From an uncultured Flavobacteriales bacterium (GTDB lineage Bacteria; Bacteroidota; Bacteroidia; Flavobacteriales; Crocinitomicaceae), in contig CAMLIF010000093.1 of NCBI GenBank assembly GCA_946479985.1, positions 1 to 15,722 on the forward strand: DNA of 15,722 bases, read 5' to 3'. The notes below the pieces were generated by a model. The model searched no databases, was not told the DNA's origin, and saw nothing but the letters and a program-made list of their open reading frames with translations. A program made the position numbers and the translations under genes. Position 1 is the stretch's first letter; every line of letters starts with the position of its first letter. This document shows positions 1-15,722 of the stretch, piece after piece.

Positions 1-47
1 GACCACCGAGATCTACACTCTTTCCCTACACGACGCTCTTCCGATCT
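1..47. other. Illumina TruSeq P5 adapter remnant (sequencing artefact)
   Basis: The first 47 bases match the 3' end of the TruSeq universal (P5) adapter. They run from the part just after its first 11 bases through the sequencing-primer end CGACGCTCTTCCGATCT, and genomic sequence follows directly at base 48. This is recognised from the known adapter sequence. It means the left edge of the window is a contig end assembled from an untrimmed read, not a natural boundary. No biological feature should be called here, and the junction at 47/48 should not be treated as genomic. Confidence 0.97.
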
Positions 48-126
48 ATTTAACTACGCAAATTTATTTTGAGATTTTATCTGCAACTCTGAATATTTAT
101 TGTGTTTTTGATAGTGTGGCTGACTA

Positions 127-1176: not shown

Positions 1177-1245
1177 GAACAATGTTACAAACAAGAAGTA
1201 GATTGGTTCAACCCTAAAAAAAAACGCAGGAGTCATTCCCGGTCG

Positions 1246-1845
1246 TCACTTTTCTTTTGCAAAAAGCACGTTGTAACCAGTATTGTTTATTGCTTTCTCA
1301 ATTTCGGATACTGTTGTTTTTGTGTGATCATATTCCACAATAGCGTTACCGCTGGCATAAGAGGTGTTTGAACGAATAATCCCGAACAGGGCATTTACTT
1401 CATAGCTGATATGCTCTTCACAAGCCGTACAGGTCATCCCTTTAATTTGGAACTCCACTTTTCGAATATCAGATTGATTAATCCCTATTAAATTCTGACC
1501 TGTATCAGGATAAAATATATGTGCATACGCGGGAAAGGCAAGCATGAGTCCTGCTAAAACTGTCATTAACCCGAAAAAGGCTTTACTGTGAGTGAATGTA
1601 GGCCGCTTGTTCATTTCCATTTTTCTGAACATCCGTTTTTTTGGTTTCACCTTCTGATACCAGGCCAGCGAAAGTACCAAAACGGTTAAACAAATTAAAT
1701 AGGGTCTTACGGGTTCTACCCATGAAAAGACAGAAGCAAAACCACTTTTTCCTGAAACCAGTGCCAGAACCGGCGTTATACAACACAGTGATGCAATAGT
1801 TGCAATCAGAATTCCAGCCCACATGAGTTTGTATTCAATCTTCAT
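1246..1845 (-). CDS. merTP: MerTP-type mercuric transport protein (MerT membrane part fused to HMA/MerP-like domain)
   Basis: This 199-residue protein would import Hg(II) across the inner membrane, normally to hand it to cytoplasmic mercuric reductase MerA. Predicted membrane segments are about residues 8-30, 46-63 and 88-107. The first carries the vicinal cysteine pair C21-C22 followed by I-T-P, the MerT metal-transfer signature. Residues about 128-197 form a heavy-metal-associated domain with the motif GMTCTAC (136-142, C139 and C142), corresponding to MerP. Such fusions are known in Bacteroidota. The loop between segments 2 and 3 (about 64-87) has no cysteine, whereas MerT proteins usually carry a second pair there. 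No merA, merR or arsR-like gene is nearby. It could act on another thiophilic metal, or be a remnant of a lost mer operon. Family call is strong; substrate is inferred. Confidence 0.88.
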   Translation of the reverse strand: MKIEYKLMWAGILIATIASLCCITPVLALVSGKSGFASVFSWVEPVRPYLICLTVLVLSLAWYQKVKPKKRMFRKMEMNKRPTFTHSKAFFGLMTVLAGLMLAFPAYAHIFYPDTGQNLIGINQSDIRKVEFQIKGMTCTACEEHISYEVNALFGIIRSNTSYASGNAIVEYDHTKTTVSEIEKAINNTGYNVLFAKEK

Positions 1846-1919
1846 AAAGTACAGTTGTGAACTAATATATGAAATGAGTTCTTATGAAATTCCCGAGATT
1901 ATCAATCACAACTTTATGA
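1842..1919 (-). promoter_or_regulatory. Potential leader hairpin enclosing the MerTP start codon
   Basis: Bases 1842-1849 (TCATAAAG) and 1855-1860 (TTGTGA) are exactly complementary to 1912-1919 (CTTTATGA) and 1906-1911 (TCACAA). Together they give 14 base pairs interrupted by a 5-base bulge (1850-1854), with a loop of about 45 bases. In the minus-strand transcript the 3' arm contains the ATG of the MerTP gene (1843-1845), so the structure could mask translation initiation. This is seen in the sequence. A regulatory role is inference, since long loops and AT-rich sequence make chance pairing possible. Confidence 0.33.
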
Positions 1920-2065
1920 GAAAAAACAGTGTTGAATATCAATAAATTGATTTTTTGCGGATTAATATAAACAGATTTCCAGGTTGAATAAGCCGGGCAA
2001 TATGCACCACGAGCAATTCTGACGGGGAGTGATATCTTATCTTTTCTTCCTGATTCCTGAAACAT
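1862..2065 (-). CDS. Doubtful small ORF between the VOC and MerTP genes
   Basis: An ATG at 2065 begins 4 bases after the stop of the VOC-family gene, a spacing typical of translationally coupled genes, and opens a 67-codon frame. The product is basic and hydrophobic, with no signal peptide, repeat or motif that I recognise, and the frame overlaps the possible MerTP leader hairpin. It may simply be an open frame in intergenic DNA or the relic of a lost gene. The only support is the start spacing and the open length. Confidence 0.18.
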   Translation of the reverse strand: MFQESGRKDKISLPVRIARGAYCPAYSTWKSVYINPQKINLLIFNTVFSHKVVIDNLGNFIRTHFIY

Positions 2066-2069
2066 TTTA

Positions 2070-2462
2070 CTACTCCATCAACAGCACATTAAATTTATGG
2101 CCGTCAGGATCGGTAAACGCAAAGCCAAAGTGGCTGGTTTCGTCTCTGCCCACCACGTGAGAAATATTACCTCCGGCACCTTTCACTTTATGAATCCATT
2201 CTTTGACTTCCGTAACCGTTTCTGCAGAAAGGGTGAATATCACTTCGCCTGACTGTATCCCCGATTCAGAAGGTAAATATTCATCTATCTGTGAACCTTG
2301 CTCGAAGAAATGAATCACAAAATTATCATCACCGAACAGAAAACTGGCCAACTTCGGATGATCGTTCGGCTCATTGGGAGTAAAACCCAATTGCGTATAG
2401 AATTGATTCGTAGCGCTGATATCTTTCACGCTAAAGTTAGCCCATATTTTTTTCGCTCTCAT
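2070..2462 (-). CDS. VOC (glyoxalase/bleomycin-resistance fold) family protein
   Basis: This 130-residue protein has the usual length and layout of a single-subunit vicinal-oxygen-chelate protein. It has a first beta-alpha unit with the pattern V-x-D-I-x-x-x-x-x-F-Y-x-x-L-G-F (about 12-27), a strand ending in IHFFEQ (about 50-55), and the characteristic closing strand with D-P-D-G-H-K-F (118-124). Members of this superfamily include glyoxalase I, dioxygenases and antibiotic-sequestering proteins, usually cytoplasmic dimers. The residue at the first metal-ligand position of classical glyoxalases appears to be Asn or Phe rather than His, so lactoylglutathione lyase activity is doubtful. A sequestering or unknown enzymatic role is equally possible. 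There is no strong tie to its neighbours. Start at 2462 is the only reasonable ATG. Fold assignment is strong; function is unassigned. Confidence 0.85.
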   Translation of the reverse strand: MRAKKIWANFSVKDISATNQFYTQLGFTPNEPNDHPKLASFLFGDDNFVIHFFEQGSQIDEYLPSESGIQSGEVIFTLSAETVTEVKEWIHKVKGAGGNISHVVGRDETSHFGFAFTDPDGHKFNVLLME

Positions 2463-2537
2463 ATCTATTGAATTTTGAAAAGAAGTTATGTAATTCCCGG
2501 GGTCCGGGCAAATATTATAGTATATAATTGCAAAAGA

Positions 2538-2568
2538 AAATCCCGATATCTTTTAGAAACCGGGATTT
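2538..2568 (-). terminator. Hairpin terminator downstream of the LpoB/CsgG-like gene
   Basis: AAATCCCG (2538-2545) and CGGGATTT (2561-2568) form a perfect 8-bp stem with a 15-base loop. Read on the minus strand, the stem is followed by a T-rich run (TTTTCTTTTG). It lies 23 bases beyond the stop codon of the gene ending at 2591, the expected place for an intrinsic terminator. Confidence 0.62.
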
Positions 2569-2581
2569 GATTCATGAATCA
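2568..2581. repeat. Perfect 14-bp palindrome
   Basis: TGATTCATGAATCA is a perfect palindrome lying between the stop codon at 2591 and the terminator hairpin at 2538-2568. No function is assigned. It may be chance in AT-rich DNA or an extension of the termination region. Confidence 0.4.
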
Positions 2582-2590
2582 TACTGCATA

Positions 2591-3208
2591 TTAAACTTCC
2601 AATCGTTTGAACATCTTTCTGGACGATTTTCTGAAAGTATCTCTCAAACTCTGATCATCGCTTCTCACAGCAGAAGTTGTTCGAACAAAACCTCTGCTAA
2701 ACAAGGTAGTACCCGCGCTTTCTTCCAAAGTATTAATCAGATTGATTTGAGAAGTGATATTGATCACATGCTGATTGGTTATTACACCAATCGCAGTCAT
2801 TCCAAGCGACATTTCATCACTCATAATAAAGGTTCTGGTTGCAGTTCCGCGAATAACGTGTGTTACACCTAAACTATCGGCAATTTGCTCATTAGTCATG
2901 GTTGCGAGCTGTTGGTAAGTCATTTTTTTCAACAGGAGCAATCCCTCCATCTGTCCTAAACTCAGAACCGTAACATCTGCTGCCAGGTTTGAGCGTTTTA
3001 AGCTGATTCGGGTCAGGCTGTTGATCATGGAGCTCTGATAATTCTGCCCGTCCTGCTCCTGCATCTCCGCAATCATTTCAGGAGTATATTTTTGAGGAAC
3101 CCGGCCTTCATAAGAAATAGCATAAGGAAGAACGGCAATAGTTGTTTGTGCAGAGAGCGGAAGCAGTCCACCAACAAAAAGAATCGAAAGTAAAAGTATT
3201 TGTTTCAT
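2591..3208 (-). CDS. Exported LpoB/CsgG/TolB-N-like protein, function unknown
   Basis: From the ATG at 3208 the product is 205 residues and starts with a clean signal peptide (MKQILLL through LSAQ, residues 1-21). A longer open frame to 3349 exists, but its first 47 residues do not look like a protein start, so the internal ATG is chosen. The mature chain begins with T-I-A-V-L-P-Y (about 22-29) and contains the pattern IADSLGVTHVIRGTA (about 109-123). This is the strand-helix arrangement of small periplasmic or outer-membrane proteins of the LpoB/CsgG/TolB N-terminal fold (A-x-x-L-G-V-x-x-V-I-x-G). No lipobox Cys is present, so it is probably soluble in the periplasm. A role in envelope assembly would fit the fold, but this is inference. 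It is followed by its own terminator and looks monocistronic. Confidence 0.72.
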   Translation of the reverse strand: MKQILLLSILFVGGLLPLSAQTTIAVLPYAISYEGRVPQKYTPEMIAEMQEQDGQNYQSSMINSLTRISLKRSNLAADVTVLSLGQMEGLLLLKKMTYQQLATMTNEQIADSLGVTHVIRGTATRTFIMSDEMSLGMTAIGVITNQHVINITSQINLINTLEESAGTTLFSRGFVRTTSAVRSDDQSLRDTFRKSSRKMFKRLEV

Positions 3209-3249
3209 GGCACTAAGGGTGAATGTTTTCTTGCAGGGGACAATTTTAG

Positions 3250-3264
3250 TGCCAAATTTTGGCA
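3250..3264. promoter_or_regulatory. 15-bp palindrome upstream of the LpoB/CsgG-like gene, possible operator
   Basis: TGCCAAA (3250-3256), one central T, then TTTGGCA (3258-3264) form a perfect inverted repeat 42 bases upstream of the ATG at 3208. Position and symmetry suit a binding site for a dimeric regulator or the base of a leader hairpin. No matching -7 element was found for this gene, so its relation to the transcription start is unknown. Confidence 0.38.
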
Positions 3265-3362
3265 GATTGCTAACAAGGAAACACGTTACCTGCCTGTATT
3301 CGGTTTGTTTGTTACGCGACCGAAATGAATTATTGACCTGATATTTCAATCAATCAATGAGA

Positions 3363-3398
3363 ACGTAAATAATTTACGTACATCGTATAGTAAGTTTG
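3363..3398 (+). promoter_or_regulatory. Candidate Bacteroidota promoter with overlapping palindromic operator
   Basis: TAAGTTTG (3391-3398) fits the Bacteroidota -7 consensus TAnnTTTG. Just upstream, ACGTAAAT (3363-3370), A, ATTTACGT (3372-3379) is a perfect 17-base palindrome covering the region where the -33 element would lie. No good TTTG -33 box is visible at the usual spacing, as might be expected of an activator-dependent promoter. It points toward the 1449-residue T9SS protein gene at 3811, implying a leader of about 400 bases. Confidence 0.45.
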
Positions 3399-3810
3399 CA
3401 TTAAGATGGGGAACTATATCACTAACTATCAATCATTTATTTTAACCGAACGAAACAAGACAAACGAATCACAAAATAATCACACAGGCAACACCTTATT
3501 TTAACATAATCCTTGAAATAAAATCCTTAAACTTGTTTACCATTTTTTATTCACTTATTCATTCACTCATTCACTAAATAAATCAACATCTCAAAAAAGA
3601 AACAATCACTGTTAAAAAGAACCCCACTCCTTTTTTATTCACTTAATACAATTATACCACAGTACAGAAATTATTCTATCACATTGTCGTGTTTGCAACG
3701 GGATGTTGTGATCTGCGACCAAACAAACAAATATCATATTCACTTTCAATACATCCGTTCCATGAACCACTAATACATGGTTTTGAATGTGTTGAACAAT
3801 TTCAAAAAAA
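3399..3810 (+). other. Intergenic region: long G-poor putative 5' leader of the large T9SS gene
   Basis: No convincing gene is seen on either strand. The stretch is AT-rich and strikingly depleted of G on the plus strand: between 3481 and 3660 I count 7 G against 43 C. It includes runs of ATTCACT-like units (3549-3575) and a duplicated 15-mer. The few bases before the ATG at 3811 are A-rich without a Shine-Dalgarno sequence, as is usual in Bacteroidota. If transcribed from the candidate promoter at 3391, it would be a largely unstructured leader. Confidence 0.5.
3543..3645 (+). repeat. Direct repeat of a 15-mer in the leader region
   Basis: TTTTTTATTCACTTA occurs at 3543-3557 and again, identical, at 3631-3645, with starts 88 bases apart. 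The first copy runs into further ATTCACT/ATTCATTCACT units up to 3575. Function unknown. It could be a slippage-derived simple repeat or a repeated protein-binding site. Confidence 0.5.
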
Positions 3811-6800
3811 ATGAGAAAATATCTATTATTACTGGGTGTACTTATATCCGGTTTATCTATTCTCTATGCGCAGCCAGGATTGGCCCGACGGAATATTGAA
3901 TGGCAACCAACTACACCCGCTTCAAATACAACAACAATTTCACGCACAGGTTTCGTTGGTTTCAATACACCACAAACGCAGATTAAGAGTGGGGAAGATT
4001 GGTGGTACGATGTAAAACCGGTTACGGGATCAACTCCAGGATACATTGCTTGTGGTTTCACAACTTATTTAAATCTTGCCTTTGATGAATCAACGCTTAC
4101 ACCGAAAGGGTTCCTTCCTGCAGCCCCCACGGGCACGCCAATTACTGATACAACTTCTGCTTGTAATAGACGAGTACTTGGGAACAATACCATTTCTGGT
4201 TATGTCTCAACTATCGCTTTTTACAATTTATCTGGAGAGCAGGTTTGGATAAAAACCGTTCATACAGGAGGAGCGTTAAATTCAATTATTCAAACTGCCG
4301 ACGGAGGTTTCTTGGCAGTTGGAGATTGCAGAGCAGCATACAAATCAGATCTGCAACCGTACGTATACAATCCACTTACGTCCAGTACGCCAAATATACT
4401 AACGAAAGTAAAACCTCCTGGAAGTCCTGGTATACCAGATAATTACTACTCTCAAAATGACAAACTTTGTGCTATTAAAATGGATGCAAACGGAGTTATT
4501 CAATGGTCTTATCTATATGGATATGAAGATCTAACAGGAACGTTAGACGAAAATTCGGATGACTACCATTTTCAAGGCATATACGGTGTAGATTTGGATA
4601 TAAATCCTTCAGGAGGCTATACTTTACTTGGCCTAGGAGCATGGTCCGGAACATTAGGCTATTATAGCCCAGTTGTTTTTAATATAGACAATAATGGAAT
4701 GTTATTAGCAAAAGAAACCTATCCTGCAACATATCCAGCAACACTTCCGGATACAGACGGAACAGTTCATTCATGGAGCAAAGCATTGGATTGTGAAAGT
4801 GGGAACTGTGTGATTTCAGGAGGCTATATCATAGTATCACCAGGAGCAGACAATGGAGGAGGACCAGGCTATTTGTTGAAATTTAATCAAAACACATTAG
4901 TTGAAGATCCTACAATTCTGTACACAGGGGCAAGTAGCTCGATTCTGGAAGATGTAATATTAAATCCGGATAACACTATTGTTTGCGCTGCTCTCAAAGC
5001 GAATACAGGCGGATATTATGGTGGCGATGATAATTACGGAGAGGGCGTTATTCTCAAGTTTAGTTCAGGAGGTTCTGTTTTGAGAGAGAAGGGATTTGGT
5101 GATGTACGAGCATACGATTTGAGATTGGGAATAACAAAACTTCAATCGGGAGAATATGCTGTTGTAAGCTCCAAAAGAGCGGGAGTAGTTGCATTAACGA
5201 TTCCACCGTATAGTTCAATAATATCCAATTATACAACTCAAGCGGGAGGGTTTAACTGTATTGACAACTGGAACTACAGTTCAGACTACTGGAATGCAGA
5301 TACTTATGTTGCTAAATTCAAGGAACCGATATTACCTGCAAATCAATTTGAGCTTGTCTGGCAAAAACAATTTGACGCAGATGGTCTTGCTCCTGTAAAT
5401 CATCCGGGCGATTTTAAAAAACAGGAATGTATGTACCGTATTGCTCAGGGAGCCGATGGTGGTTTGTTCGTTGTGGGTAATAGTTCTCACAATGCAGATG
5501 ACTATTTCTCCGCGAAGCTTTTCAGCGATTGCCAGAATTATGCTTCTTACACCTATGCAAGTGGTTATACAGTGCCTGTTGGTACTACCAATTGGTCTTC
5601 CGGTACCAGAAAAATCAAAGGATTGCTTACAATTCCTGCTGGGGCAACACTTACTATTTCAGGTTCCACAACAACGGTTGAGTTTGCTGATACCCGCAGA
5701 GTAGGAACTCGCACAGGTATTGTGATTCAACCGGGAGGAAAATTGGTTTTATCCGGTGGTGCTACATTAACCTCCATTCAAGGATGTCCCGGAGAAAAAG
5801 CTATGTGGGATGGAATTGAAGTACAGGGTAATTACAATCAGAATCAAACACCGAATTCGAATCAGGGAGTATTTGAAATCTTACCAGGTACCGGTAATCT
5901 TGGTGGAAACGTAGTAGATGCCAGAACAGGTGCCACAACCACAGCAAAATTATCTGATGGATCAACAGACTGGGCACACACAGGCGGAGGAATTATGAAG
6001 ATTAATAAAGGACATTTCCTGAACAATGGACGTGCTTTCGAATTCCGTGCGTTTACAAATCCAAGCGGAGCAAATGATGCTTCGTATATTGTGAACAGTA
6101 CTTTTGATGTAACCAGTACTTACGGCGACGGATCTTCTACAACGGGTGGATTATTCGCGCAAATCACTATGAATGCTACTAAAAACATTCTGATCAAAGG
6201 AAACTCATTCAATGATCAAAGACCGATCACAACTGCATTGCCGCTTGATAAACATACAATGGGAATTTATGCAATTGATGCCGCGTTCGAATTGAAAACT
6301 TATTGTACAAGTGGTTTTGAGCCTTGTGCTGTGAGCTATCAGGTAAAAAACACTTTTTCAAATCTATCGCATGGTGTTTATGTGAGCGGTGGTGTCTCAA
6401 ATGCTATTGTTAAAATTGATCAGGCAACGTTCACCAACAACATGATCGGAGTGCGTATTGAAGGAGCTCATTACGGATACATTCAGAGATGTACGTTCGA
6501 TGTTCCGAAACTTGTTCAAACACTATCAACACCTATGGGCGTGGGAGTGTATTATTCAAGTGCTTATGGAATAAACATCGACGAAAACATCTTTAATTCT
6601 ACAGGTGCCGGAGTAGCTAATTCTCAAAGTATGGGAGTTTACATTAATAACTCAGATGATATGTACGGTGGTTTATCACATTACCGAAATACGTTTAATA
6701 ACTTAACAATCGGTACACAAGCAGCAAATGAGAACAACGCTCTTCGGATAGACTGTAACTGGTTCAACAAGCAAACCAACGGAAAAGTGGATATTCACGT

Positions 6801-8160
6801 TCCGGTAGGAAACCTTGCAGATCAGGGGAGTTGTTTCCCGGTCAGCCCGGTAGCGAATAAGTTCACAGGAACTTGTAATAATACAACGTTGTTACAGATC
6901 CAAAACGGGATGTCGCATTACCTAAGATATTACACCTATCCGCTGACATCAATGGGATTATCCACTTCTTGTGTTACAAACAGCCCAAGCAGCAGCTCGG
7001 TTTTAGTTTCTACGTGTTCTACATACAACGAAGCAACTGCCTGTCCAACTCATTTTCCAAGCGAAGGTGGCGGTTCATCCGGATTAGCTCCTCATGTAGA
7101 TCCGCTTGTAATAGCAAACGAGATCAAAGCGAAAGAACATCAATTGCCTTCGGACGCTGTTATAGAAGAAGCAATCAGCAATTTACCTGATGCAGAGGCT
7201 TTAAACACGATACTGTCAGGTTCACCATATATTTCGGCAGAACACTTGAAAACCGTTATTGATGTAAATGCTCCGGTTGAAACGAAAAGAACAATCTTAC
7301 TTGCAAACATGCCGCTTCCACAGGACGTGATTGATTACGCAGGAAGCTCTTCATTACCTGAAGATGTAGTGAATGAGATTACAGTTACAGGTCAATCGCC
7401 CGCAGAAGAGTTAGCAAGCCAGATAGCTGCGCTGAAAGTAGAAAAACAGCTTTTGGATAATGAGATCGTACTCGATTTCCTGGATAAAAACCAATTGCAA
7501 AATGCAAGACAGTACCTGGCTGATCAGAAAACGATTCCAACTTTAATGCAGTTGATTTCTATTAGTATGCATGAGCCAGCTGATGTTATCAACGCGCTTT
7601 TCGCAGAATTGAGAGCCGAAAGAAACAAGCTAACTGCAAATGACGCGAAAATGGTTTCGAACATCGATCAATTCCTGCATTACTACACATGGAGAGCGGA
7701 ACACCTGAATGCTGATCATATTTCTTTGAGCGATTACCAGGCAATGGCGGCTTATTACAAGGAAAATGACATTTATTCAGATCTTCCGAACGGAATTCTT
7801 TATTACATCACTGAAAATGTGCTTACTAAGCCGGTTTACGAATTGGATTACAAAGCCACTCAGGTAGTAATTGAAGAAGAAAACACAGAAGAGGTAAATG
7901 AGTTTGATAATTTGGTGATTTATCCGAATCCAACTTCAGGAGAGCTTTCTATTGATGTTGCAAATGCTGATGAAAAAATAACAAGTATCAAAGTTTACAG
8001 TTTTGATGGTAGAATGCTGCATGAAGTATCGAACATTTCCGAATCAAAATTAACATTTGAAATTCCGGTTATGTACACCGGTTTAGTAATTGTTGAGATT
8101 CACACGAAACTGGCAGATACAAACAACGTAGTTTTCAAAAAGATCATGATCAAAAAATAA
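3811..8160 (+). CDS. Large secreted T9SS-sorted surface protein with beta-propeller-like, parallel beta-helix and helical stalk regions
   Basis: This 1449-residue protein is exported by Sec and then the type IX system. Residues 1-21 are a signal peptide ending in LYAQ. Residues about 30-580 hold recurring blade-like strands of the type A-D-G-G-F-L-A-V-G (near 165) and A-D-G-G-L-F-V-V-G (near 550), suggesting a beta-propeller. From about 591 to 985 short beta turns repeat (starting with T-I-P-A-G-A-T-L-T-I-S-G), typical of a right-handed parallel beta-helix. Residues about 1090-1360 are helical and Glu/Lys/Gln-rich, like a stalk. From about 1367 the motif V-I-Y-P-N-P-T-S-G-E-L-S opens a type A C-terminal sorting domain ending in F-K-K-I-M-I-K-K. 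It is likely surface-attached or released. The beta-helix could mean adhesion or polysaccharide binding/cleavage, but no catalytic residues could be identified. Terminators follow the stop codon. Confidence 0.9.
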   Translation: MRKYLLLLGVLISGLSILYAQPGLARRNIEWQPTTPASNTTTISRTGFVGFNTPQTQIKSGEDWWYDVKPVTGSTPGYIACGFTTYLNLAFDESTLTPKGFLPAAPTGTPITDTTSACNRRVLGNNTISGYVSTIAFYNLSGEQVWIKTVHTGGALNSIIQTADGGFLAVGDCRAAYKSDLQPYVYNPLTSSTPNILTKVKPPGSPGIPDNYYSQNDKLCAIKMDANGVIQWSYLYGYEDLTGTLDENSDDYHFQGIYGVDLDINPSGGYTLLGLGAWSGTLGYYSPVVFNIDNNGMLLAKETYPATYPATLPDTDGTVHSWSKALDCESGNCVISGGYIIVSPGADNGGGPGYLLKFNQNTLVEDPTILYTGASSSILEDVILNPDNTIVCAALKANTGGYYGGDDNYGEGVILKFSSGGSVLREKGFGDVRAYDLRLGITKLQSGEYAVVSSKRAGVVALTIPPYSSIISNYTTQAGGFNCIDNWNYSSDYWNADTYVAKFKEPILPANQFELVWQKQFDADGLAPVNHPGDFKKQECMYRIAQGADGGLFVVGNSSHNADDYFSAKLFSDCQNYASYTYASGYTVPVGTTNWSSGTRKIKGLLTIPAGATLTISGSTTTVEFADTRRVGTRTGIVIQPGGKLVLSGGATLTSIQGCPGEKAMWDGIEVQGNYNQNQTPNSNQGVFEILPGTGNLGGNVVDARTGATTTAKLSDGSTDWAHTGGGIMKINKGHFLNNGRAFEFRAFTNPSGANDASYIVNSTFDVTSTYGDGSSTTGGLFAQITMNATKNILIKGNSFNDQRPITTALPLDKHTMGIYAIDAAFELKTYCTSGFEPCAVSYQVKNTFSNLSHGVYVSGGVSNAIVKIDQATFTNNMIGVRIEGAHYGYIQRCTFDVPKLVQTLSTPMGVGVYYSSAYGINIDENIFNSTGAGVANSQSMGVYINNSDDMYGGLSHYRNTFNNLTIGTQAANENNALRIDCNWFNKQTNGKVDIHVPVGNLADQGSCFPVSPVANKFTGTCNNTTLLQIQNGMSHYLRYYTYPLTSMGLSTSCVTNSPSSSSVLVSTCSTYNEATACPTHFPSEGGGSSGLAPHVDPLVIANEIKAKEHQLPSDAVIEEAISNLPDAEALNTILSGSPYISAEHLKTVIDVNAPVETKRTILLANMPLPQDVIDYAGSSSLPEDVVNEITVTGQSPAEELASQIAALKVEKQLLDNEIVLDFLDKNQLQNARQYLADQKTIPTLMQLISISMHEPADVINALFAELRAERNKLTANDAKMVSNIDQFLHYYTWRAEHLNADHISLSDYQAMAAYYKENDIYSDLPNGILYYITENVLTKPVYELDYKATQVVIEEENTEEVNEFDNLVIYPNPTSGELSIDVANADEKITSIKVYSFDGRMLHEVSNISESKLTFEIPVMYTGLVIVEIHTKLADTNNVVFKKIMIKK

Positions 8161-8180
8161 TCAGAATTCAACTGATTGGA

Positions 8181-8213
8181 AATGGGGTTCGGGAAATCGA
8201 GCCCCATTTTTTT
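8181..8213 (+). terminator. Intrinsic terminator after the large T9SS gene
   Basis: A stem formed by AATGGGG-T-TCG (8181-8191) and CGA-G-CCCCATT (8198-8208), containing one T-G wobble pair, closes a 6-base loop. A T tract (8207-8213) follows. It begins 21 bases past the stop codon at 8160. Confidence 0.85.
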
Positions 8214-8306
8214 AGTATTCGTCTTTATCAAATTCTTCTGGGGTTTCCCCGAAAGTAAAAAATGTATTAACCCACCGGGACAGTGCTACTATTAAGTTTC
8301 CTGCAC

Positions 8307-8344
8307 AAAAAAACCGTCTCAATCAATTTTAAGACGGTTTTTTT
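8307..8344. terminator. Bidirectional intrinsic terminator between convergent genes
   Basis: AAAAAAACCGTCT (8307-8319) and AGACGGTTTTTTT (8332-8344) form a perfect 13-bp stem with a 12-base loop. The A tract on one side and T tract on the other make it able to stop transcription from either direction. It lies 18 bases beyond the stop of the minus-strand gene ending at 8362, and backs up the terminator at 8181 for the plus-strand gene. Confidence 0.9.
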
Positions 8345-8361
8345 AATTCAGTGCGGATTCC

Positions 8362-10662
8362 TTAACGGGTCAGCATAATTCGTTGGTTCAATAAACCATT
8401 GTCAATTGAACGCAGCCAGTAAATACCATTCGACAAAGAACCTAAATCTACAGTGGATTCGATGGATTTTTCCAATTCCAAAACTTTGATAACATGGCCT
8501 ACCATATCTGTAATCACATATTCACCGGAGTTCGAAGAAATGATGTTCACTAATCCATTTGTAGGATTCGGGTAAATGATGGCAAGTTCTAAAGCAGTTT
8601 CAGACAATCCTACTGTAGAAATGGCCACACAATCAGAAGTATCAGCACAATCGTTAGACATCAATATCACCGCATAATTTCCATTGGCAGCAGGAGTGAA
8701 GCTTGCATTAGTTGCTCCTTGAACTGCCTGACCGTTTGAACAATCAATCCACTGATAAGCTGCATTGCTTTCGTTGGCTGTAATGGTAATTCCGTTTACG
8801 TTAGTAGTATTGTCGATTGTTAGTATGCTTACAACAATGGTTTCTGATTCCGAACAACCGTTTGCCTGAGTCACTTCCACAGAGTAGCTGCCCGGAGTGT
8901 TTACGGTTATCTGCTGCTGTGTATCACCTGTACTCCATTCATAAGTACTACCAGAATTCTGCGCATCCAATAAAAGCAGATTTCCTGCACAAAGTAAGGT
9001 GTCATTACCCAAATCAATAACTGGGATAGAAAGTATTGTTACCTCAATTGTATCAGCCTTTTCACACCCCATCATATCAGTAACCATTACACTGTATGCA
9101 CCTGCAGTATTCACACTAATCGTCTGACTCAATGAACCATCATTCCAAAGAAACGATGAACCGGCATTTTGAGCATCTAACTGAGTTGAAGTGCCGTCAC
9201 AGATTGAAATATCCGATCCAAGATAAACAACCGGGAGTGAATTTATCTGGATAATAATGGTGTCAGCAGAAGAACACAAGTTCACATCTGTTACTGAAAT
9301 GGAATAAGAACCTGCAGTCATTACACTGATTTGCTGAGTCATATCACCTGAATTCCATTGATAAACCGCTCCGGTGTTTTGAGCGTCAAGCATTAAAGTA
9401 CTTCCTTCACAAAGAGACGTGTCATTACCTAAATCAACAATAGGTAAAGAATTGAATGTAACGGAAATCGTATCTCTTTTGGCACAACCTGTAGGGCTAA
9501 GAACTTCTACCCAATAAGAACCGGAAGTTGCAGGGCTTAACGTTTGGTTTACAGAACCATCGCTCCAGCTATAAGTAAAGCCAGGGTTTCCGGCATCCAA
9601 TGTAAGTGGAAGGTTTTCGCAAAGAACAGCATCCGCCCCCAAATCAACAACCAATGCATTATAGGAATTGAGATCGGTCAAAGTTGGTTCTATGGGTGTA
9701 TACTTTCGCACTTTAATGATTTTGGAAAATCCGTCATAACCTATTGCATAAGAAGAATACCCAATGAAGAAATCGGTGCCTGAATAGGAATTCAAACTGG
9801 TTAAAGTGGTATTACAATTAGCAGTTGTTGTATTGCAGTATTCGCTAACCTGAATAGTAGAACCGTTCATCCCGGCAACAATTTTATAATCATAAAAAGT
9901 AGACGGATCAGCTGAGGCAGGAAGTGTAGGATAATTCATGTCAAACCATGCATTTCCTCCGGAAACATCCGGATCTTCCGTGCAACCTAAATCAGTGCCG
10001 GCTGTTCGGAATGTATACCGATTATCCGAACCGCTATAACCCATCAGAAAACCAAAAGAACCTCCCGCATATTTCGAGTTTGTTTCCTCAATAACAACCT
10101 GTTGTGTGAAATGGACATTGCTGCGAATGTATTCCCAATTGTTATTTCCGGATAAATTCAGCATTCCGCCGGATAAACTCAGATTGGGAGTACCTCTTAC
10201 TTCCCATTTTGCTAAATCGAGTGCAGATCCTTCAAAATCATCAAAAAACTCAAAGGTATTGTCACCGCTGCTTTGTGCAACTGCCGCCGGATTACCGTAA
10301 AACATGTGAATTGTATCTACTGCATTGGCCGCAACAGTGGATAGCTTTACCCAGACATTGGTAGTTGGAGTGTTGATTCCATCCTCAATCCAGTAGCTCA
10401 GGTTGTCACTGCAATCGCTTGTAAAACGCAGGTCACTTCCATCTGCATTCATTTCATTTGCTGCAATCAGTGCCTGACTGTTAAATGTGATTTTAATCTG
10501 ATGCCCGGTAAGTGCCTGAGCATTTGTTGAGTTGTCAATTTCAATTGATTGTGCATTTGACCAGTCCAGATTATATGAGCAAGGCATACAGGTCTGAGCA
10601 TTCAAATTAGAAACAAAGAGCAATGCTCCAATTGATAAGGTGAGTCGTTGAAAAATTTTCAT
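8362..10662 (-). CDS. Secreted T9SS-sorted protein with DUF2341-like/lectin-like N-terminus and tandem Ig-like repeats
   Basis: Starting at the ATG at 10662, the product is 766 residues. An upstream ATG at 10686 would lie inside the likely -7 promoter element, so it is not used. Residues 1-23 are a signal peptide ending in LNAQ. Residues about 30-140 match the DUF2341 pattern: ligand-like beta sandwich, W-V-K-L-S, I-H-M-F-Y-G-N-P, then F-F-D-D-F-E-G. Residues about 140-325 look like a concanavalin/laminin-G-like sandwich. Four Ig/PKD-like units of exactly 70 residues follow (about 337-616), each with two conserved cysteines, then a diverged fifth unit (about 617-685). From about 695 the motif I-I-Y-P-N-P-T-N-G-L-V opens a T9SS type A sorting domain ending in R-I-M-L-T-R. 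Probably an adhesin or glycan-binding surface protein; that role is inferred from domains only. Confidence 0.9.
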   Translation of the reverse strand: MKIFQRLTLSIGALLFVSNLNAQTCMPCSYNLDWSNAQSIEIDNSTNAQALTGHQIKITFNSQALIAANEMNADGSDLRFTSDCSDNLSYWIEDGINTPTTNVWVKLSTVAANAVDTIHMFYGNPAAVAQSSGDNTFEFFDDFEGSALDLAKWEVRGTPNLSLSGGMLNLSGNNNWEYIRSNVHFTQQVVIEETNSKYAGGSFGFLMGYSGSDNRYTFRTAGTDLGCTEDPDVSGGNAWFDMNYPTLPASADPSTFYDYKIVAGMNGSTIQVSEYCNTTTANCNTTLTSLNSYSGTDFFIGYSSYAIGYDGFSKIIKVRKYTPIEPTLTDLNSYNALVVDLGADAVLCENLPLTLDAGNPGFTYSWSDGSVNQTLSPATSGSYWVEVLSPTGCAKRDTISVTFNSLPIVDLGNDTSLCEGSTLMLDAQNTGAVYQWNSGDMTQQISVMTAGSYSISVTDVNLCSSADTIIIQINSLPVVYLGSDISICDGTSTQLDAQNAGSSFLWNDGSLSQTISVNTAGAYSVMVTDMMGCEKADTIEVTILSIPVIDLGNDTLLCAGNLLLLDAQNSGSTYEWSTGDTQQQITVNTPGSYSVEVTQANGCSESETIVVSILTIDNTTNVNGITITANESNAAYQWIDCSNGQAVQGATNASFTPAANGNYAVILMSNDCADTSDCVAISTVGLSETALELAIIYPNPTNGLVNIISSNSGEYVITDMVGHVIKVLELEKSIESTVDLGSLSNGIYWLRSIDNGLLNQRIMLTR
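8815..9654 (-). repeat. Four in-frame 210-bp units encoding 70-residue Ig-like repeats
   Basis: Within the T9SS protein gene, the sequence encoding P-(I/V)-V-(D/Y)-L-G recurs with starts at 9654, 9444, 9234 and 9024, exactly 210 bases apart. Each unit carries L-C-x-x and L-D-A-(Q/G)-N, a Y/F-x-W-(N/S)-(D/S/T)-G core, (A/P)-G-(S/A)-Y and a second Cys. The units are diverged in nucleotide sequence, so this is an old duplication with conserved length. Confidence 0.85.
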
Positions 10663-10683
10663 GTAGTATCTTAAAAGTGTGGG

Positions 10684-10691
10684 CAAAGGTA
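10684..10691 (-). promoter_or_regulatory. Bacteroidota -7 promoter element for the DUF2341/Ig-repeat gene
   Basis: On the minus strand this reads TACCTTTG, a full match to TAnnTTTG. It places a transcription start roughly 15 bases before the ATG at 10662, a short leader. No convincing TTG -33 element is present at the usual distance. Confidence 0.5.
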
Positions 10692-11045
10692 ACTAAACTA
10701 AAACAATAAGTGACAGGTTCTTTTTAAGGGCCGTTAGCTTCTGTTTTTCAGTGATTTGACAAACTTTTTTTTATCAAAATATAGTCGTTAGAATCAGTCT
10801 CCCAAACTATCGAGTGAAACAATTGAAAGGTATACCAAGGAGTTAATCCGTAGGAAAGAGATCATTGATTTCTTCACCGAAAAAGGAACGATTTGACGTG
10901 GAGCGGTTCATTCGTATCTGATTTCATGTAGAATAGGTTTTACGCTGGGCCCCTGATATTACTAGCTTTGAATATTATTTTCATATCGATTACCCAATGC
11001 CTGCTTTGAAAAAAACACATGAATTACCCATCTTTCACTTGTGGA
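10692..11045. other. Intergenic stretch with no confident gene
   Basis: About 350 bases between the promoter of the minus-strand T9SS gene and that of the dehydrogenase. Apart from a possible coding remnant at 10792-10896 and AT-rich sequence, I see no RNA gene, repeat or clear terminator. A short 32-codon ATG frame at 10997-11095 overlaps the next promoter and is not believed to be a gene. Confidence 0.5.
10792..10896 (+). pseudogene. Possible coding remnant (gene tail without a start)
   Basis: A 34-codon frame opens after a TAG at 10789 and ends in TGA at 10894-10896, with no ATG. Its product reads SETIERYTKELIRRKEIIDF and onward to FTEKGTI. This looks like a real amphipathic helix of a helical, charged protein rather than random AT-rich translation. 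The upstream part is interrupted by stops. I do not recognise the family; the C-terminus of a decayed gene is one reading, chance is the other. Confidence 0.22.
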
Positions 11046-11076
11046 TTTGCAAAAACGGACCAAGTAAGTATATTTA
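11046..11076 (+). promoter_or_regulatory. Candidate promoter of the SDR gene
   Basis: TTTG (11046-11049), 19 bases, then TATATTTA (11069-11076), which is one mismatch from TAnnTTTG. Spacing and sequence fit the Bacteroidota -33/-7 promoter and predict a start of transcription about 20 bases before the GTG at 11105. Confidence 0.5.
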
Positions 11077-11104
11077 CATCCTCTATTCACGTTAAGCTAA
11101 AGTT

Positions 11105-11884
11105 GTGGAAAATCGTTTTGAAGGAAAAGTTGTATTAATAACCGGCGGAACATCCGGGATTGGTTTGACCACGGCACTAGCATTTGCTAAGGAACGTGCC
11201 ACTGTAGTGGTTACTGGTCGTCGTGCCGAAGAGGGAGAACAAGCTGTTGCACTCATTAACGAAACAGGTTCAGAAGCTTTTTTTATTCAATGTAACATGA
11301 GTATTGCAAAAGAAGTTGAAAGTTGTGTTCAAAAGCTTTTGGCACGATATAATCGTTTGGATTGTTTATTCAATAATGCTGGAATAGCCGGACCGGTTCA
11401 ATCGTTACTTGATATTGAAGAAGATACCTGGGACAACATTATGAATGTAAATCTCAAAGGTGTTTGGCTGACTATGAAATATGCAATTCCTGCTATGCTT
11501 GCAAGCGAACCGAAAGGAGGGACTATCGTCAATATGTCATCCGTACTCGGACTAACGGGTGTAAATACCATGGGGTCAGCAATTTCACCATATATGGCAA
11601 GTAAGCACGGAGTTGTTGGACTTACAAAATCCGCAGCCTTGGAATTTATCTCTCAGAATGTAAGAATCAACGCGGTTTGTCCGGCATACATCCTTACACC
11701 TATGTTCGATAAAGTACTAAAAGAAAACCCTGAATTAGATCAGATACTCCGTTCTTTTCATCCAATTGGACGATTTGGAACACCGGAAGAAGTCGCAGAA
11801 TCGGTATTATGGCTGTGCTCTGATAAATCCTCATTCATGGTTGGATGTGCCATGCCGGTAGACGGCGGATACATGGCTAAGTAA
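11105..11884 (+). CDS. Short-chain dehydrogenase/reductase (SDR family oxidoreductase)
   Basis: This 259-residue protein has the length and motifs of a classical SDR, an NAD(P)-dependent alcohol/ketone oxidoreductase. Seen are the cofactor loop T-G-G-T-S-G-I-G (13-20), N-N-A-G (90-93), N-V-N (114-116), S145/S146, the catalytic Y163-x-x-x-K167, and a C-terminal V-D-G-G-Y. The residues after the second strand are T-G-R-R (R39, R40) with no acidic residue, which favours NADP(H). At 63-65 the usual C-D-V/M is C-N-M, an Asn where Asp normally contacts the adenine. S146 to Y163 is slightly longer than usual (about 4 residues). The start is GTG; a promoter fits just upstream. The substrate is unknown. 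Its position before the polyketide synthase suggests, but does not show, a tailoring or precursor role. Confidence 0.9.
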   Translation: MENRFEGKVVLITGGTSGIGLTTALAFAKERATVVVTGRRAEEGEQAVALINETGSEAFFIQCNMSIAKEVESCVQKLLARYNRLDCLFNNAGIAGPVQSLLDIEEDTWDNIMNVNLKGVWLTMKYAIPAMLASEPKGGTIVNMSSVLGLTGVNTMGSAISPYMASKHGVVGLTKSAALEFISQNVRINAVCPAYILTPMFDKVLKENPELDQILRSFHPIGRFGTPEEVAESVLWLCSDKSSFMVGCAMPVDGGYMAK

Positions 11885-12013
11885 CAGTAAAATAAAGGGT
11901 CATGCTGTATTAATTGGTGTTCCAATTACTAATCCTTCAGTTGAAATCTATCACACCTTTTCTATTAAGAATTAGCAAGTAATCGTCATCCCAAAACCAG
12001 TATTGGTTCTCAG

Positions 12014-12037
12014 CAATCAAAAACTCTTGTTTGATTG
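12014..12037 (+). promoter_or_regulatory. Perfect 8+8 bp dyad over the -33 region of the PKS promoter, possible operator
   Basis: CAATCAAA (12014-12021) and TTTGATTG (12030-12037) are perfect inverted copies separated by 8 bases. The -33 TTG (12027-12029) falls between the arms. Regulator binding here would directly block or assist RNA polymerase, so a dimeric repressor or activator site is plausible. Its role is inferred from symmetry and position. Confidence 0.45.
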
Positions 12038-12057
12038 ATACCTGTTCGTTATATTTG
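12026..12057 (+). promoter_or_regulatory. Promoter of the polyketide synthase gene
   Basis: CTTG (12026-12029), 20 bases, then TATATTTG (12050-12057), an exact match to the Bacteroidota -7 consensus TAnnTTTG. It predicts a transcript beginning near 12064 with a leader of about 85 bases before the ATG at 12149. This is the best promoter match in the window. Confidence 0.62.
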
Positions 12058-12148
12058 CCTTACAAAATCACTATGCACGAAAAGAAGCCCTATTCCTGAT
12101 ATAAGGTTGATTCTGCCATTCTTACATGGTGACGTTAAGTTTGAATCA

Positions 12149-15100
12149 ATGGAAAAGGTGTCATCGAACGTTGCCCCGGCAAACGCTCTCAAGCTACAAA
12201 CAGAAAGCACAGCAACTGCTGCAAGAGATATTGCGGTGATTGGTATCTCATGTCGTTTACCTGGAGCAAAAAACTACAATGAGTTCTGGCAAAACCTATT
12301 GAATGGGAACAATAGCATATCTGAAATTCCTGCTGATCGTTGGGATTGGAAGAAATACTATGGTAATCCGCAAACGGAGGAAAATAAAACCAATAGCAAA
12401 TGGGGTGGCTTTATAGAAGATATTGATTGCTTTGATCCGCTTTTCTTTGGTATCTCACCCAAAGAAGCCAATTATATCGATCCTCAGCACCGTATCTTCC
12501 TGGAAGAAGTATGGAGCGCAATTGAAGATGCTGGTTATAAAGCGTCAGATCTTTCCGGAAGAAAGGTAGGCGTTTATGCAGGGGTTTCTAAAAACGATTA
12601 CGCCGAGCTAATGGAAGGCATTGATGCTAATCCTTTTATTTCTACAGGAACTGTGCATTCCATTTTACCCAATAGAGTTTCATACCTCCTAAACTTAAGA
12701 GGTAAAAGTGAAGCAGTTGATACCGCTTGCTCAAGTGCACTTGTAGCGTTAAACAATGCTATTCGTGACCTTCTGGATGGAGAAACAGAAGCTGCAATTG
12801 TGGGAGGCGTGAATGCATTGCTCAGTCCGCGTATGTATTTATCACATGGGAAATCAGGTATGCTTTCCAGCGAAGGACAATGCAAAACCTTCGATGAGTC
12901 AGCGGATGGATATGTGAGATCAGAAGGTGTTGCAGTTGTTTTTCTAAAAACACTTGAACAGGCAAAGGCAGACGGTGATTCCATTATTGGAATAATCAAA
13001 TCTACTGCGATTAACCATGGCGGTAAAGGAAATTTTCTTACAGCACCCAATGTTATTGCACAATCCGAAGTTGTTTGTGATGCTTTGAACAAGGCTGGAA
13101 TCGATCCTGCAAGTATTGGATACATTGAAACACATGGAACTGGTACGCCTCTCGGTGATCCTATTGAGATCAATGCACTTAAAAAAGCGTATAGAGAAAC
13201 TTTTGAAAAAAGAGGTCAATTGCCCCAAAAAGGCTATTGTGCTTTAGGAGCTGTTAAAGGTAATATTGGTCACTTGGAAAGTGCGGCTGGAATGGCTTCC
13301 ATCATTAAATGCTTATTGGCACTTAAATACCAAAAACTGATTCCTGTACTTCATTTAAAAAAGATTAATCCTTCTATAGAAATTGACAATTCACCTTTTT
13401 ACATTCTTAATTCAGTAAATGACTGGAAGGCGCAAGAGGGTGAAAATGGTCCACTTCCCAGAAGAGCAGCGCTTAGTGGTTTTGGTATGGGTGGAGTCAA
13501 TGCTCACGTAATTATTGAAGAGGCTCCGCAAATAGAGCAGCAGCCAGAGACAGATTCTCCCCATTTGATTTTGCTTTCTGCAAAAAAAGGTCGATTGAAG
13601 GAGTATGTCAGCAAGTTTCGTGTATTCCTTCAATCAGATGACTCAAAAAATCTGTCAATCAATGATTTATCTTTCACTTTAGCTAACGGACGTGAATATT
13701 ACGAAGAACGGCTCGCGGTTACTGTAAGTAATCTTTCAGAACTCCGTGATGTCTTTGAAAGATATGTTATGGATGAACCTCATTCACAGCTTCATCAGGT
13801 AACGATCGATGAAAAAAAATACAAGAAAAAAACTTTAACCGTACAGTGTAATACCCCCGATGAAGTATTACAAGCTTGGATTTCAGGTGAACACTTCACT
13901 TTTAGCCAAAACTGTTTTACTGGAAAAAGGATTCCTTTGCCAACCTATCCGTTTCTCCGTCGAAAGTGCTGGTTTGATGCATCAAAAGCGGTTGCTGTTC
14001 CGTCAATCACAGATCGAACAACTGTTATTCAGCCAATACAGGAGATAAAATACAATGAGCAATTATCCCCATCTTCGGTAATCGTTCAGGATCATCGAGT
14101 ACAATCGGTAAAAACACTTCCGGGAGTAGGCTATCTTGCAATTTTACAGAAGGCACTAACCGATGCAAAGGAAACACAGGCATTCCAATGGCACTTCAAA
14201 GATGTTTTCTGGCTATCTCCAATCACATTTTTTGAGTCGGCTCATGAGCTAACAACTTCCGTTCTGGAAAATGGAGAATTTACCATGAGCACTGCTCTTG
14301 GTATACATTGCCAAGGTACAGTAACGAAAGAACCAGCTGCAATGGCAGTTAAATCTAAAGTGATTAACGAAGTTTTGAATAGATGTTCCAATGAAGTAAA
14401 TGAAATTTATGCGCTCTTTATTGCCAATGGATTACATTATGGTCCTTCTTTCCGTGGAATAGAAAGTATTCATTGGAATGATACAGAAGCAATTGCTAAA
14501 GTTGGGCCTTATAACGTTTCCAACAATTGGTGGAACGAGCCGGGTATTATGGATCTCGCGTTTCAAACTGCTGCAGCATTGAGTACCGTTAATAATAGAA
14601 CGAATAACATTCAGTGTGTGCCATATTTTGTGACGGAGGCTGTCTTTACAACGTTATCAGCTCCGTTGGCCTTTATTTATGTTACACAACACCCGGATGC
14701 GGGTAAATCAACACTTCGATTCGATATATCTCTTTTGGATATAAATGGCAATGAAATAGGCTATTTCAAGCAATTCACCAAACGAATACTTCACACGATA
14801 GCACCCGCACAGCAAAAAAAATCGCCTGTTTTTTATTACCAACCCGATTGGTTGAACGAAGATCTTCAGCCTTCTCAGAAAACAGAGGGAACAATTGTAC
14901 TGGCTAATATAACGGAGGAAGCGGTAAGGCCACATGTTCAGAATCCATTGACTTACCTATCAACAGAAAAATATACTGTTGCAACAGCTCCTGAACAAAT
15001 GAAGGAAGATTTCCTTGCTTTTTTCAACCAACAGAAAGCTGAAAATAGTTCACCGGCATGCTTCGTGTACCACTCGAAGCTTCGTGGTTCCGACAAAGAA

Positions 15101-15722
15101 ACGGATCTGATTGTGCTATTTCAACTGATTCAGGCAATTATGGAATCTAAACAACGTCAGGCCATTAACATATTGTATGTAAATGATTTAGTTACCGAAG
15201 CTGAACATCCATTTATCGCATCGGTTGCAGGTTTTGCACGAACGCTGTTGTTTGAAGCTCCAAAATTAACACTTGAAGTTATTTCAACAGATTCCCCCAT
15301 CACTGAATTTATACCGCAATTACTTCAGGAATGGCAAATGAAAACAAGTCCATTACATGAAGTTAAGTTTGAGAAAGGGAAGCGAATGGTTCGGGTTATT
15401 CGCTCAATAGAACAGAGCGAAATTCAAGACACACGGGCTTTTCAGCTAAAAAACAACGGTGTGTACATTCTCGCAGGAGGTTCCGGTGGTTTAGGAAAAT
15501 TATTTGCGATGCAACTTGCTGAGTCAGCAGCTGTAAAGCTTGTGTTACTTGGCCGACGCAGTGAAGACGAAGAAATTCGGAATCTGTTAGCACAAATTAA
15601 AGAAACTGGAAGTGAAGGAAGGTATATCTCACTTGATATTACTGATGAAACAGCAGTTTTAGAGGCCATGCAAGAGATACGGAATCAGTGGGGAAGCATT
15701 CAAGGTGTAATTCAGGCAGGTG
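12149..15722 (+). CDS. Type I polyketide synthase, trans-AT type: KS-DH-KR (3' end beyond the window)
   Basis: An open frame of 1191 complete codons runs from ATG 12149 off the right edge. Residues about 27-460 are a ketosynthase with an intact triad: C194 in D-T-A-C-S-S-A, H329 in E-T-H-G-T-G-T, H375 in G-N-I-G-H-L-E-S-A-A-G. A linker of about 140 residues follows, ending in L-P-T-Y-P-F (597-602), with no GHSxG or other acyltransferase motif, as in trans-AT systems. A dehydratase spans about 625-880, with H649 in D-H-R-V-x-x-x-x-x-L-P-G, Y-G-P-S-F (764-768) and D802 in M-D-L-A-F-Q. From about 893 a structural KR half begins, and the catalytic KR Rossmann loop A-G-G-S-G-G-L-G is at 1109-1116. 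KR catalytic residues, carrier protein and any later modules are outside the window. The module would extend a chain, reduce the beta-keto group and dehydrate it to a double bond. Malonyl units should come from a separate acyltransferase, not seen here. Confidence 0.93.
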   Translation, partial: MEKVSSNVAPANALKLQTESTATAARDIAVIGISCRLPGAKNYNEFWQNLLNGNNSISEIPADRWDWKKYYGNPQTEENKTNSKWGGFIEDIDCFDPLFFGISPKEANYIDPQHRIFLEEVWSAIEDAGYKASDLSGRKVGVYAGVSKNDYAELMEGIDANPFISTGTVHSILPNRVSYLLNLRGKSEAVDTACSSALVALNNAIRDLLDGETEAAIVGGVNALLSPRMYLSHGKSGMLSSEGQCKTFDESADGYVRSEGVAVVFLKTLEQAKADGDSIIGIIKSTAINHGGKGNFLTAPNVIAQSEVVCDALNKAGIDPASIGYIETHGTGTPLGDPIEINALKKAYRETFEKRGQLPQKGYCALGAVKGNIGHLESAAGMASIIKCLLALKYQKLIPVLHLKKINPSIEIDNSPFYILNSVNDWKAQEGENGPLPRRAALSGFGMGGVNAHVIIEEAPQIEQQPETDSPHLILLSAKKGRLKEYVSKFRVFLQSDDSKNLSINDLSFTLANGREYYEERLAVTVSNLSELRDVFERYVMDEPHSQLHQVTIDEKKYKKKTLTVQCNTPDEVLQAWISGEHFTFSQNCFTGKRIPLPTYPFLRRKCWFDASKAVAVPSITDRTTVIQPIQEIKYNEQLSPSSVIVQDHRVQSVKTLPGVGYLAILQKALTDAKETQAFQWHFKDVFWLSPITFFESAHELTTSVLENGEFTMSTALGIHCQGTVTKEPAAMAVKSKVINEVLNRCSNEVNEIYALFIANGLHYGPSFRGIESIHWNDTEAIAKVGPYNVSNNWWNEPGIMDLAFQTAAALSTVNNRTNNIQCVPYFVTEAVFTTLSAPLAFIYVTQHPDAGKSTLRFDISLLDINGNEIGYFKQFTKRILHTIAPAQQKKSPVFYYQPDWLNEDLQPSQKTEGTIVLANITEEAVRPHVQNPLTYLSTEKYTVATAPEQMKEDFLAFFNQQKAENSSPACFVYHSKLRGSDKETDLIVLFQLIQAIMESKQRQAINILYVNDLVTEAEHPFIASVAGFARTLLFEAPKLTLEVISTDSPITEFIPQLLQEWQMKTSPLHEVKFEKGKRMVRVIRSIEQSEIQDTRAFQLKNNGVYILAGGSGGLGKLFAMQLAESAAVKLVLLGRRSEDEEIRNLLAQIKETGSEGRYISLDITDETAVLEAMQEIRNQWGSIQGVIQAG

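Follow-up and report, generated by a model that had tools for sequence, protein, structure and literature searches.

An acyltransferase-less polyketide synthase at a contig end of a Bacteroidota genome, probably the start of an assembly line primed in trans

How does a trans-acyltransferase (trans-AT) polyketide synthase (PKS) start its chain when the protein opens directly with a ketosynthase (KS) and carries no loading domain? We met this question at the right end of contig CAMLIF010000093.1 from an uncultured Flavobacteriales bacterium, of which positions 1 to 15,722 are referred to as the window, i.e. the whole stretch of 15,722 nucleotides analyzed here. The start mode of a trans-AT line bears on the prediction of its product, since substrates are deduced from KS sequence. 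An earlier note on this DNA left two options for the PKS frame that runs off the contig, namely that the protein is not the first of its line or that it receives a preformed starter; the relatives described below favor the second, as their KSs are N-terminal and one of them is the only modular PKS found in its genome. For these two reasons, it seems probable to us that a trans-AT line of a Bacteroidota genome begins with the window protein, and that its KS, at the front of the first subunit, receives a starter directly from a source outside the protein.

The frame is open from an ATG at 12149 (earliest possible start: TTG at 12035) to the end of the window. A Pfam domain search on the translation of 12149-15721 (1191 aa) matched ten families, and all scores given here lie above the curated cut-offs: ketoacyl-synt (302 bits), Ketoacyl-synt_C (126), RhiE-like_linker (39.8; cut-off 27), PKS_DH_N (33.9), PS-DH (49.4) and KR (61 bits over profile positions 1-88 of 180). 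By residue, the matches span a KS (26-403), a RhiE-like KS linker (476-540), a dehydratase (DH; 631-879) and the front of a ketoreductase (KR; 1104-1190). The linker ends C-terminally in LPTYPFLRRKCW (YPFLRRKCW), the His motif of the DH reads HxxxSxxxxP with Ser replacing the usual Gly, and the nucleotide motif AGGSGGLG of the KR lies at residue 1109. Acyl_transf_1 (PF00698) is absent among the ten Pfam families matched, and the AT motif GHSxGE was not found in the window PKS, including the region between KS and DH. As such, the open frame, the Pfam matches and the active-site residues bear out the coordinates and the domain order (KS, AT-less linker, DH, KR front) given previously, and the description "intact" is right for the KS, in which C194, H329 and H375 are present, but not for the KR or the protein as a whole, the contig ending inside the KR.

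Is this a trans-AT enzyme, or a cis-AT PKS or polyunsaturated fatty acid (PUFA) synthase that merely shows no AT in the part seen? We call a KS AT-less when no AT was found directly after it in the stretch examined. Two IQ-TREE sets, with 48 and 50 KSs, separate the AT-less KSs from all eight cis-AT KSs at ultrafast bootstrap support (UFBoot) of 99 and 100, and in a FastTree tree of 605 KSs, 170 of them with an AT after the KS, a split of 163 tips that includes the window KS is free of cis-AT KSs (0.892; node supports are read from unrooted trees throughout). The top single stretch in a PDB sequence search was the KS of PksJ (PDB 4na1, 535.7 bits), the top whole chain was 7zma (982.4 bits over two stretches, the best with 513.8), and the best chain taken as cis-AT was mycocerosic acid synthase (392.1 bits); PksJ belongs to the bacillaene synthase. 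Partial matches to the KS speak for the cis-AT or PUFA alternative, PKS_plus_SDR scoring 584.6 bits against a cut-off of 1740 and TIGR02813 (PfaA, PUFA synthase) 267.3 bits against 1010.1, yet the 25 top-scoring NCBIfam models shown, PfaA included, all fall short of their cut-offs on the window PKS, and the linker between KS and DH matches the RhiE-like linker. Furthermore, no AT was found later in the protein in five of five relatives that reach past the KR, and discrete ATs lie beside the PKS in both relatives with gene context (G1504 and G1378). The clustering of the KS with cis-AT or PUFA-type synthases, named in the earlier note as a refuting outcome, was looked for, and the KS groups with AT-less KSs instead. 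Altogether, for the part seen, the absence of an AT between the KS and the processing domains, the linker, the trees and the best PDB stretch support, at the level of sequence, a modular trans-AT PKS, and a cis-AT PKS or PUFA synthase is very improbable.

Within the AT-less KSs, the window KS belongs to a clade of seven members (0.993 in the FastTree tree of 605 KSs, UFBoot 99 in IQ-TREE), a five-member version of which has a UFBoot of 100 in IQ-TREE. Besides the window, the clade comprises P0004 (Nocardiopsis sp. CNR-923), P0006, P0129, P0182 (Candidatus Thiodiazotropha) and the first KSs of G1504 and G1378. These six relatives came from protein searches plus one genome search, in which G1504 and G1378 were two of 364 genomes of the class around a gammaproteobacterial metagenome-assembled genome. 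They share with the window the N-terminal KS and the KS-DH-KR order as well as the signature described next, and those named (Gammaproteobacteria, Nocardiopsis, Candidatus Thiodiazotropha) belong to other phyla; the clade spans at least three phyla.

The specificity loop reads VSKNDY in all seven clade KSs, and SKND was found in none of the 598 other KSs. The same contrast holds for G[KR]S before the active Cys (7/7 against 0/598), the position of K186 being occupied by Pro in 467 of 482 other readable KSs (113 were unreadable). Among the sequences retrieved, VSKNDY is present in 4 of 244 proteins and in 5 of 148 loci, all five being copies of the G1378 and G1504 genes. We assigned VSKN to loop positions 1-4 because the frame G....DY is shared; in other KSs this frame reads VMYG (8) or VMYE (6), with 229 of 595 unreadable, and the PksJ KS (PDB 4na1) has GTGNTGY and GPS where the window has GVSKNDY and GKS. 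According to passages of PMC11321453, residues 1-4 of the dimer-interface loop (VMYH, TNGQ) help to choose the substrate by its alpha/beta positions. We infer that the loop Lys faces the substrate tunnel, and it could be compatible with a charged starter. Since the best KSs outside the clade reach 55-56% identity to the window KS, the clade is set apart by tree and motif, not by identity. The window shows each feature by which we recognized this KS-first VSKN clade, i.e. placement in the tree, VSKNDY, G[KR]S and a KS at the extreme N-terminus. Such a family was not found described in the literature searched, most subscription papers lying outside that search, and it may fairly be called an apparently undescribed family of KSs. 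The "undescribed biosynthetic system" claimed earlier is too strong for the window, which by itself shows only a piece of a known kind of enzyme, cut off where the contig ends: trans-AT PKSs are already known, including in Bacteroidota, and the family looks like an undescribed variant of them.

The position of the KS within the protein is likewise shared. Counted from ATG 12149, the window KS begins at residue 24, and in all seven clade proteins the KS starts at residue 2-24. Five relatives are readable past the KR, namely P0129, P0182, G1504, G1378 and P0001 (Thermoanaerobaculia), the last of which is not in the tree because its KS is cut. Each of them continues as KS-DH-KR-[ACP]-DH2-ACP-KS, where the acyl carrier protein (ACP) before the second DH (DH2) was detected in four, P0129 being the exception. 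The DH2 domains of all five retain His, Pro and Gln, with Thr replacing the catalytic Asp and Val replacing Tyr in the YGP motif. DH2 was considered as an enoyl isomerase and rejected, as the signatures of such domains given in passages of PMC11672594 (Pro to a hydrophobic residue; Q/H of DxxxQ/H to V/L) are lacking from DH2, which keeps Pro and Gln and shows Asp to Thr. The idea that the relatives are stand-alone single modules was dropped when longer members were found. P0004 and P0006 both end in the ACP-DH2 linker, and their last residues look out of frame while the five relatives read through; judged from the letters, these ends may stem from an error in sequencing, from genes that are split or from a true frameshift.

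Gene context is most telling in G1504, where the PKS lies on one contig of 3,737,323 bases, equal to the listed genome size. The protein (4614 aa) reads KS-DH-KR-ACP-DH2-ACP-ACP-KS-DH-KR-ACP-ACP-KS-ACP and is adjoined by genes for a thioesterase-lipocalin protein, a free-standing AT and a phosphopantetheinyl transferase. This genome has five KS_C matches, three in the KS-first PKS and two in frames of 412 and 418 aa (FabB/F size), and two AT matches, of which the first belongs to the AT next to the PKS and the second to a frame of 313 aa. The KS C-domain search revealed no further modular PKS in this genome. Hence, if the sequence is complete, the first KS of G1504 has no upstream PKS module. 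The neighborhood in G1378 is unlike that in G1504. There, a gene for an AMP-binding enzyme lies directly 5' of that for the KS-first PKS (3181 aa). On the same strand follow, in this order, genes for a second PKS, an ACP, a discrete KS, a hydroxymethylglutaryl (HMG) synthase, two enoyl-CoA hydratases (ECH), an AT and a third PKS, and finally for another AT and a sulfotransferase. The AMP-binding enzyme is closest to fatty-acyl-AMP ligases and a related model for PKS and nonribosomal peptide synthetase (NRPS) proteins, and scores 285 bits to PRK05850, below the cut-off of that model. Among six looser relatives, an AMP-binding unit precedes the KS in three (P0226, P0118, L007), an NRPS condensation-adenylation unit is found in L014, and only an ACP in the short piece of L022 and L009. 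The G1378 ligase and the AMP-binding units of these three proteins may point to an activated carboxylic acid as starter in some members. A single starter type was sought among the looser relatives and does not follow, as the upstream units vary among the six proteins.

We thus propose that the N-terminal KS would take its starter acyl group from a separate carrier or ligase, and not from a loading domain or an upstream module in cis, and would condense it with malonyl-ACP that a free-standing AT has loaded. The new beta-keto group would then be converted to an alkene by KR and DH. By analogy with the relatives, the window protein would continue as KR-ACP-DH2-ACP(-ACP)-KS, where DH2 has the DH fold without the catalytic Asp. 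Passages of PMC8302727 describe known starts of trans-AT lines, i.e. malonyl decarboxylation by a GNAT-like domain, malonyl methyl ester or succinyl starters, and transamidation. Like the start proposed here, these supply the first acyl group to the first KS; in the aurantinin cases described there, however, an ACP at the start of the PKS protein is loaded, whereas no ACP precedes the clade KSs in their own proteins.

Several observations count against a first subunit primed in trans. The downstream half of the PKS lies outside the window, no loading enzyme adjoins the window PKS gene, and no clade member was present in the loci fetched from Bacteroidota genomes. The step in identity at the clade border is small, KSs within the clade being 56-62% and the best KSs outside up to 55.7% identical to the window KS, and over KS-DH-KR the module identity is only 37-38% for G1504, G1378, P0004 and P0006. 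The next neighbors of the clade are unstable (P0239 in IQ-TREE with 90 and 95; P0188 and P0118 in FastTree with 0.951 and 0.91), and in an earlier, smaller tree two cis-AT cyanobacterial KSs lay near the window KS at 0.277, a placement that was lost in later trees. Six of the ten KSs nearest to the clade sit behind dehydrating (DH or DH-KR) modules, as a mid-line KS does, and G1378, with 16 KS_C matches in all, carries PKS genes on other contigs as well, so that an upstream module elsewhere is possible there.

The latter two points fit an ordinary mid-line trans-AT subunit, whose N-terminal KS would obtain the chain via docking from the last ACP of another PKS protein. Indeed, an N-terminal KS is not rare, as among 284 AT-less KSs of retrieved proteins 67 begin no later than residue 60, a count that includes partial proteins and clade members. 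That the KS is N-terminal in every clade protein, that G1504 yielded no other modular PKS, and that no further PKS gene lies in the 12 kb to the left of the window PKS all speak for a first subunit instead; moreover, the 23 residues before the KS would leave little room for a docking domain. We therefore regard a mid-line subunit as rather unlikely. The dehydrating modules in front of the nearest outside KSs would also suit a small iterative AT-less PKS, in which one KS-DH-KR-ACP module is reused for a polyene and no modular line starts. The shortest relatives, P0004 and P0006, are recorded as KS-DH-KR-ACP proteins, and the G1504 PKS has only three KSs. An iterative enzyme is nevertheless improbable, given that all five relatives readable further go on to DH2, ACP and another KS, and that P0004 and P0006 seem to stop before DH2 in out-of-frame residues.

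Going beyond a first subunit primed in trans, the VSKN clade might be an undescribed multi-phylum family of self-starting trans-AT lines, in which the rebuilt loop allows direct priming by a starter unlike the usual beta-processed chains, for instance a charged acyl group or a fatty acyl delivered by a stand-alone ligase, and the Asp-less DH2 has a novel action on the first enoyl product. The rebuilding would lie in Ser-Lys replacing the loop residues that read the alpha/beta positions, along with Lys or Arg in place of Pro near the active Cys. We hold this wider proposal to be possible, though we doubt it more than we trust it. In any case, VSKNDY provides a strict and easily searched tag for finding such clusters, and a KS clade with a fixed N-terminal place, which heads the only modular PKS of G1504, offers a clean test case for KS priming without a loading module.

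How common such enzymes are in the host phylum depends on the source. Passages of PMC9248904 report elansolid trans-AT PKS clusters in Chitinophaga (Bacteroidota) and call trans-AT clusters rare in that genus, whereas a part of PMC10394414 names Bacteroidetes among the typical trans-AT PKS phyla; on the earlier statement that such clusters are uncommon in the Bacteroidota, the sources disagree. PMC9248904 also cites work of 2010 on trans-AT PKSs in Bacteroidetes. The elansolid-type PKS of Chitinophaga is, like the window protein, a modular trans-AT PKS of the same phylum, a likeness drawn from description and not from sequence. In a profile search with A2, 6 of 390 sampled genomes of the order of G007 (Sporocytophaga) matched over more than 700 model positions, and G007 itself has two AT frames on the same contig as AT-less PKS genes; as at most two candidates per genome were scored in the sampled-genome searches, a missing match there means little. 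VSKNDY was found in none of the 59 loci from one profile search of genome contigs, and these contained no ortholog of the window PKS. Phage records with PKS matches numbered 28, the five shown having 33-36% query cover and below 27% identity, and among plasmid records no best place reached at least 60% identity.

These searches also brought up further PKS genes. A 1.2-Mb genome from the order of G007 encodes a 3849-aa KS-DH-KR PKS frame with no AT in the part seen (L117, G442:C1:283312-287199), and is perhaps a reduced symbiont with a trans-AT cluster. Several smaller Bacteroidota genomes, G105, G212 and G385 among them, have in common long PKS frames of ~3200-3600 aa, and two of those fetched (L076 and L077) read KS-KR-DH. 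Plasmid pNY3A of a Klebsiella grimontii urine isolate (L081; 361 kb, typed mobilizable) has 12 KS_C matches, its PKS- and adenylation-type genes being partly without a listed gene. The 806-kb plasmid pDMB05-1 of Bacillus velezensis (L080) carries the housekeeping genes rnjA, def and ktrC beside a PKS cluster and is possibly a misassembled part of the chromosome.

The features of the window PKS and the gene to its left are collected in Table 1, where we take PF21394 to be the structural half of the KR.

Table 1. Positions of the PKS, its domains and motifs, and the upstream oxidoreductase gene in the window
Feature	Position	Strand	Remarks
SDR-family (short-chain dehydrogenase/reductase) oxidoreductase	11105..11884	+	upstream of PKS, same strand
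AT-less type I polyketide synthase, 5' part	12149..15722	+	frame runs off contig end; 1191 codons seen
KS domain	12218..13534	+	residues 24-462; catalytic C194, H329, H375
VSKN, positions 1-4 of KS dimer-interface (specificity) loop	12584..12595	+	residues 146-149
K186 in GKS, eight residues before active Cys	12704..12706	+	Pro in 467 of 482 other readable KSs
KS-to-DH linker without AT	13535..14038	+	RhiE-like linker; ends LPTYPFLRRKCWF
DH domain	14051..14776	+	residues 635-876; H649, D802, Q806
PF21394 match	15098-15301	+	Pfam
Catalytic KR, front half	15455..15721	+	NAD(P)H-binding AGGSGGLG; cut by contig end

To the left of the PKS, besides the SDR, the window encodes two large proteins with sorting domains of the type IX secretion system (T9SS), a glyoxalase-fold protein, a MerTP fusion, and proteins of 252 and 369 aa that both have no Pfam match. 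The two T9SS sorting domains score 29.2 and 31.4 bits (cut-off 23), and with this system taken as a marker of Bacteroidota they back the assignment of the host to that phylum. The GC content of the PKS gene (40.5%) lies inside the range of the other seven window genes (37.5-42.7%). The SDR was considered as a cluster member; a comparison of frames of 180-400 codons from 148 loci gave one match only, with 34% identity in a Bacillus velezensis record, and membership is not claimed. Neither is a Bacteroidota-type promoter: the strict form of the pattern had 0 matches and the loose form 5, with 4.5 expected. In 10600-12400, sigma-70-like and terminator-like sites were about as frequent as expected from shuffled sequence, and searches for Rfam families, tRNAs and tandem repeats found none. 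The MerTP mercuric transport fusion lies at 1246-1845 of the window and scores 252 bits (cut-off 180). One of the two proteins with a T9SS sorting domain, of 1449 aa and encoded at 3811-8160, has only six relatives found, with 26-72% identity at 71-100% query cover, one of which is labeled hypothetical protein.

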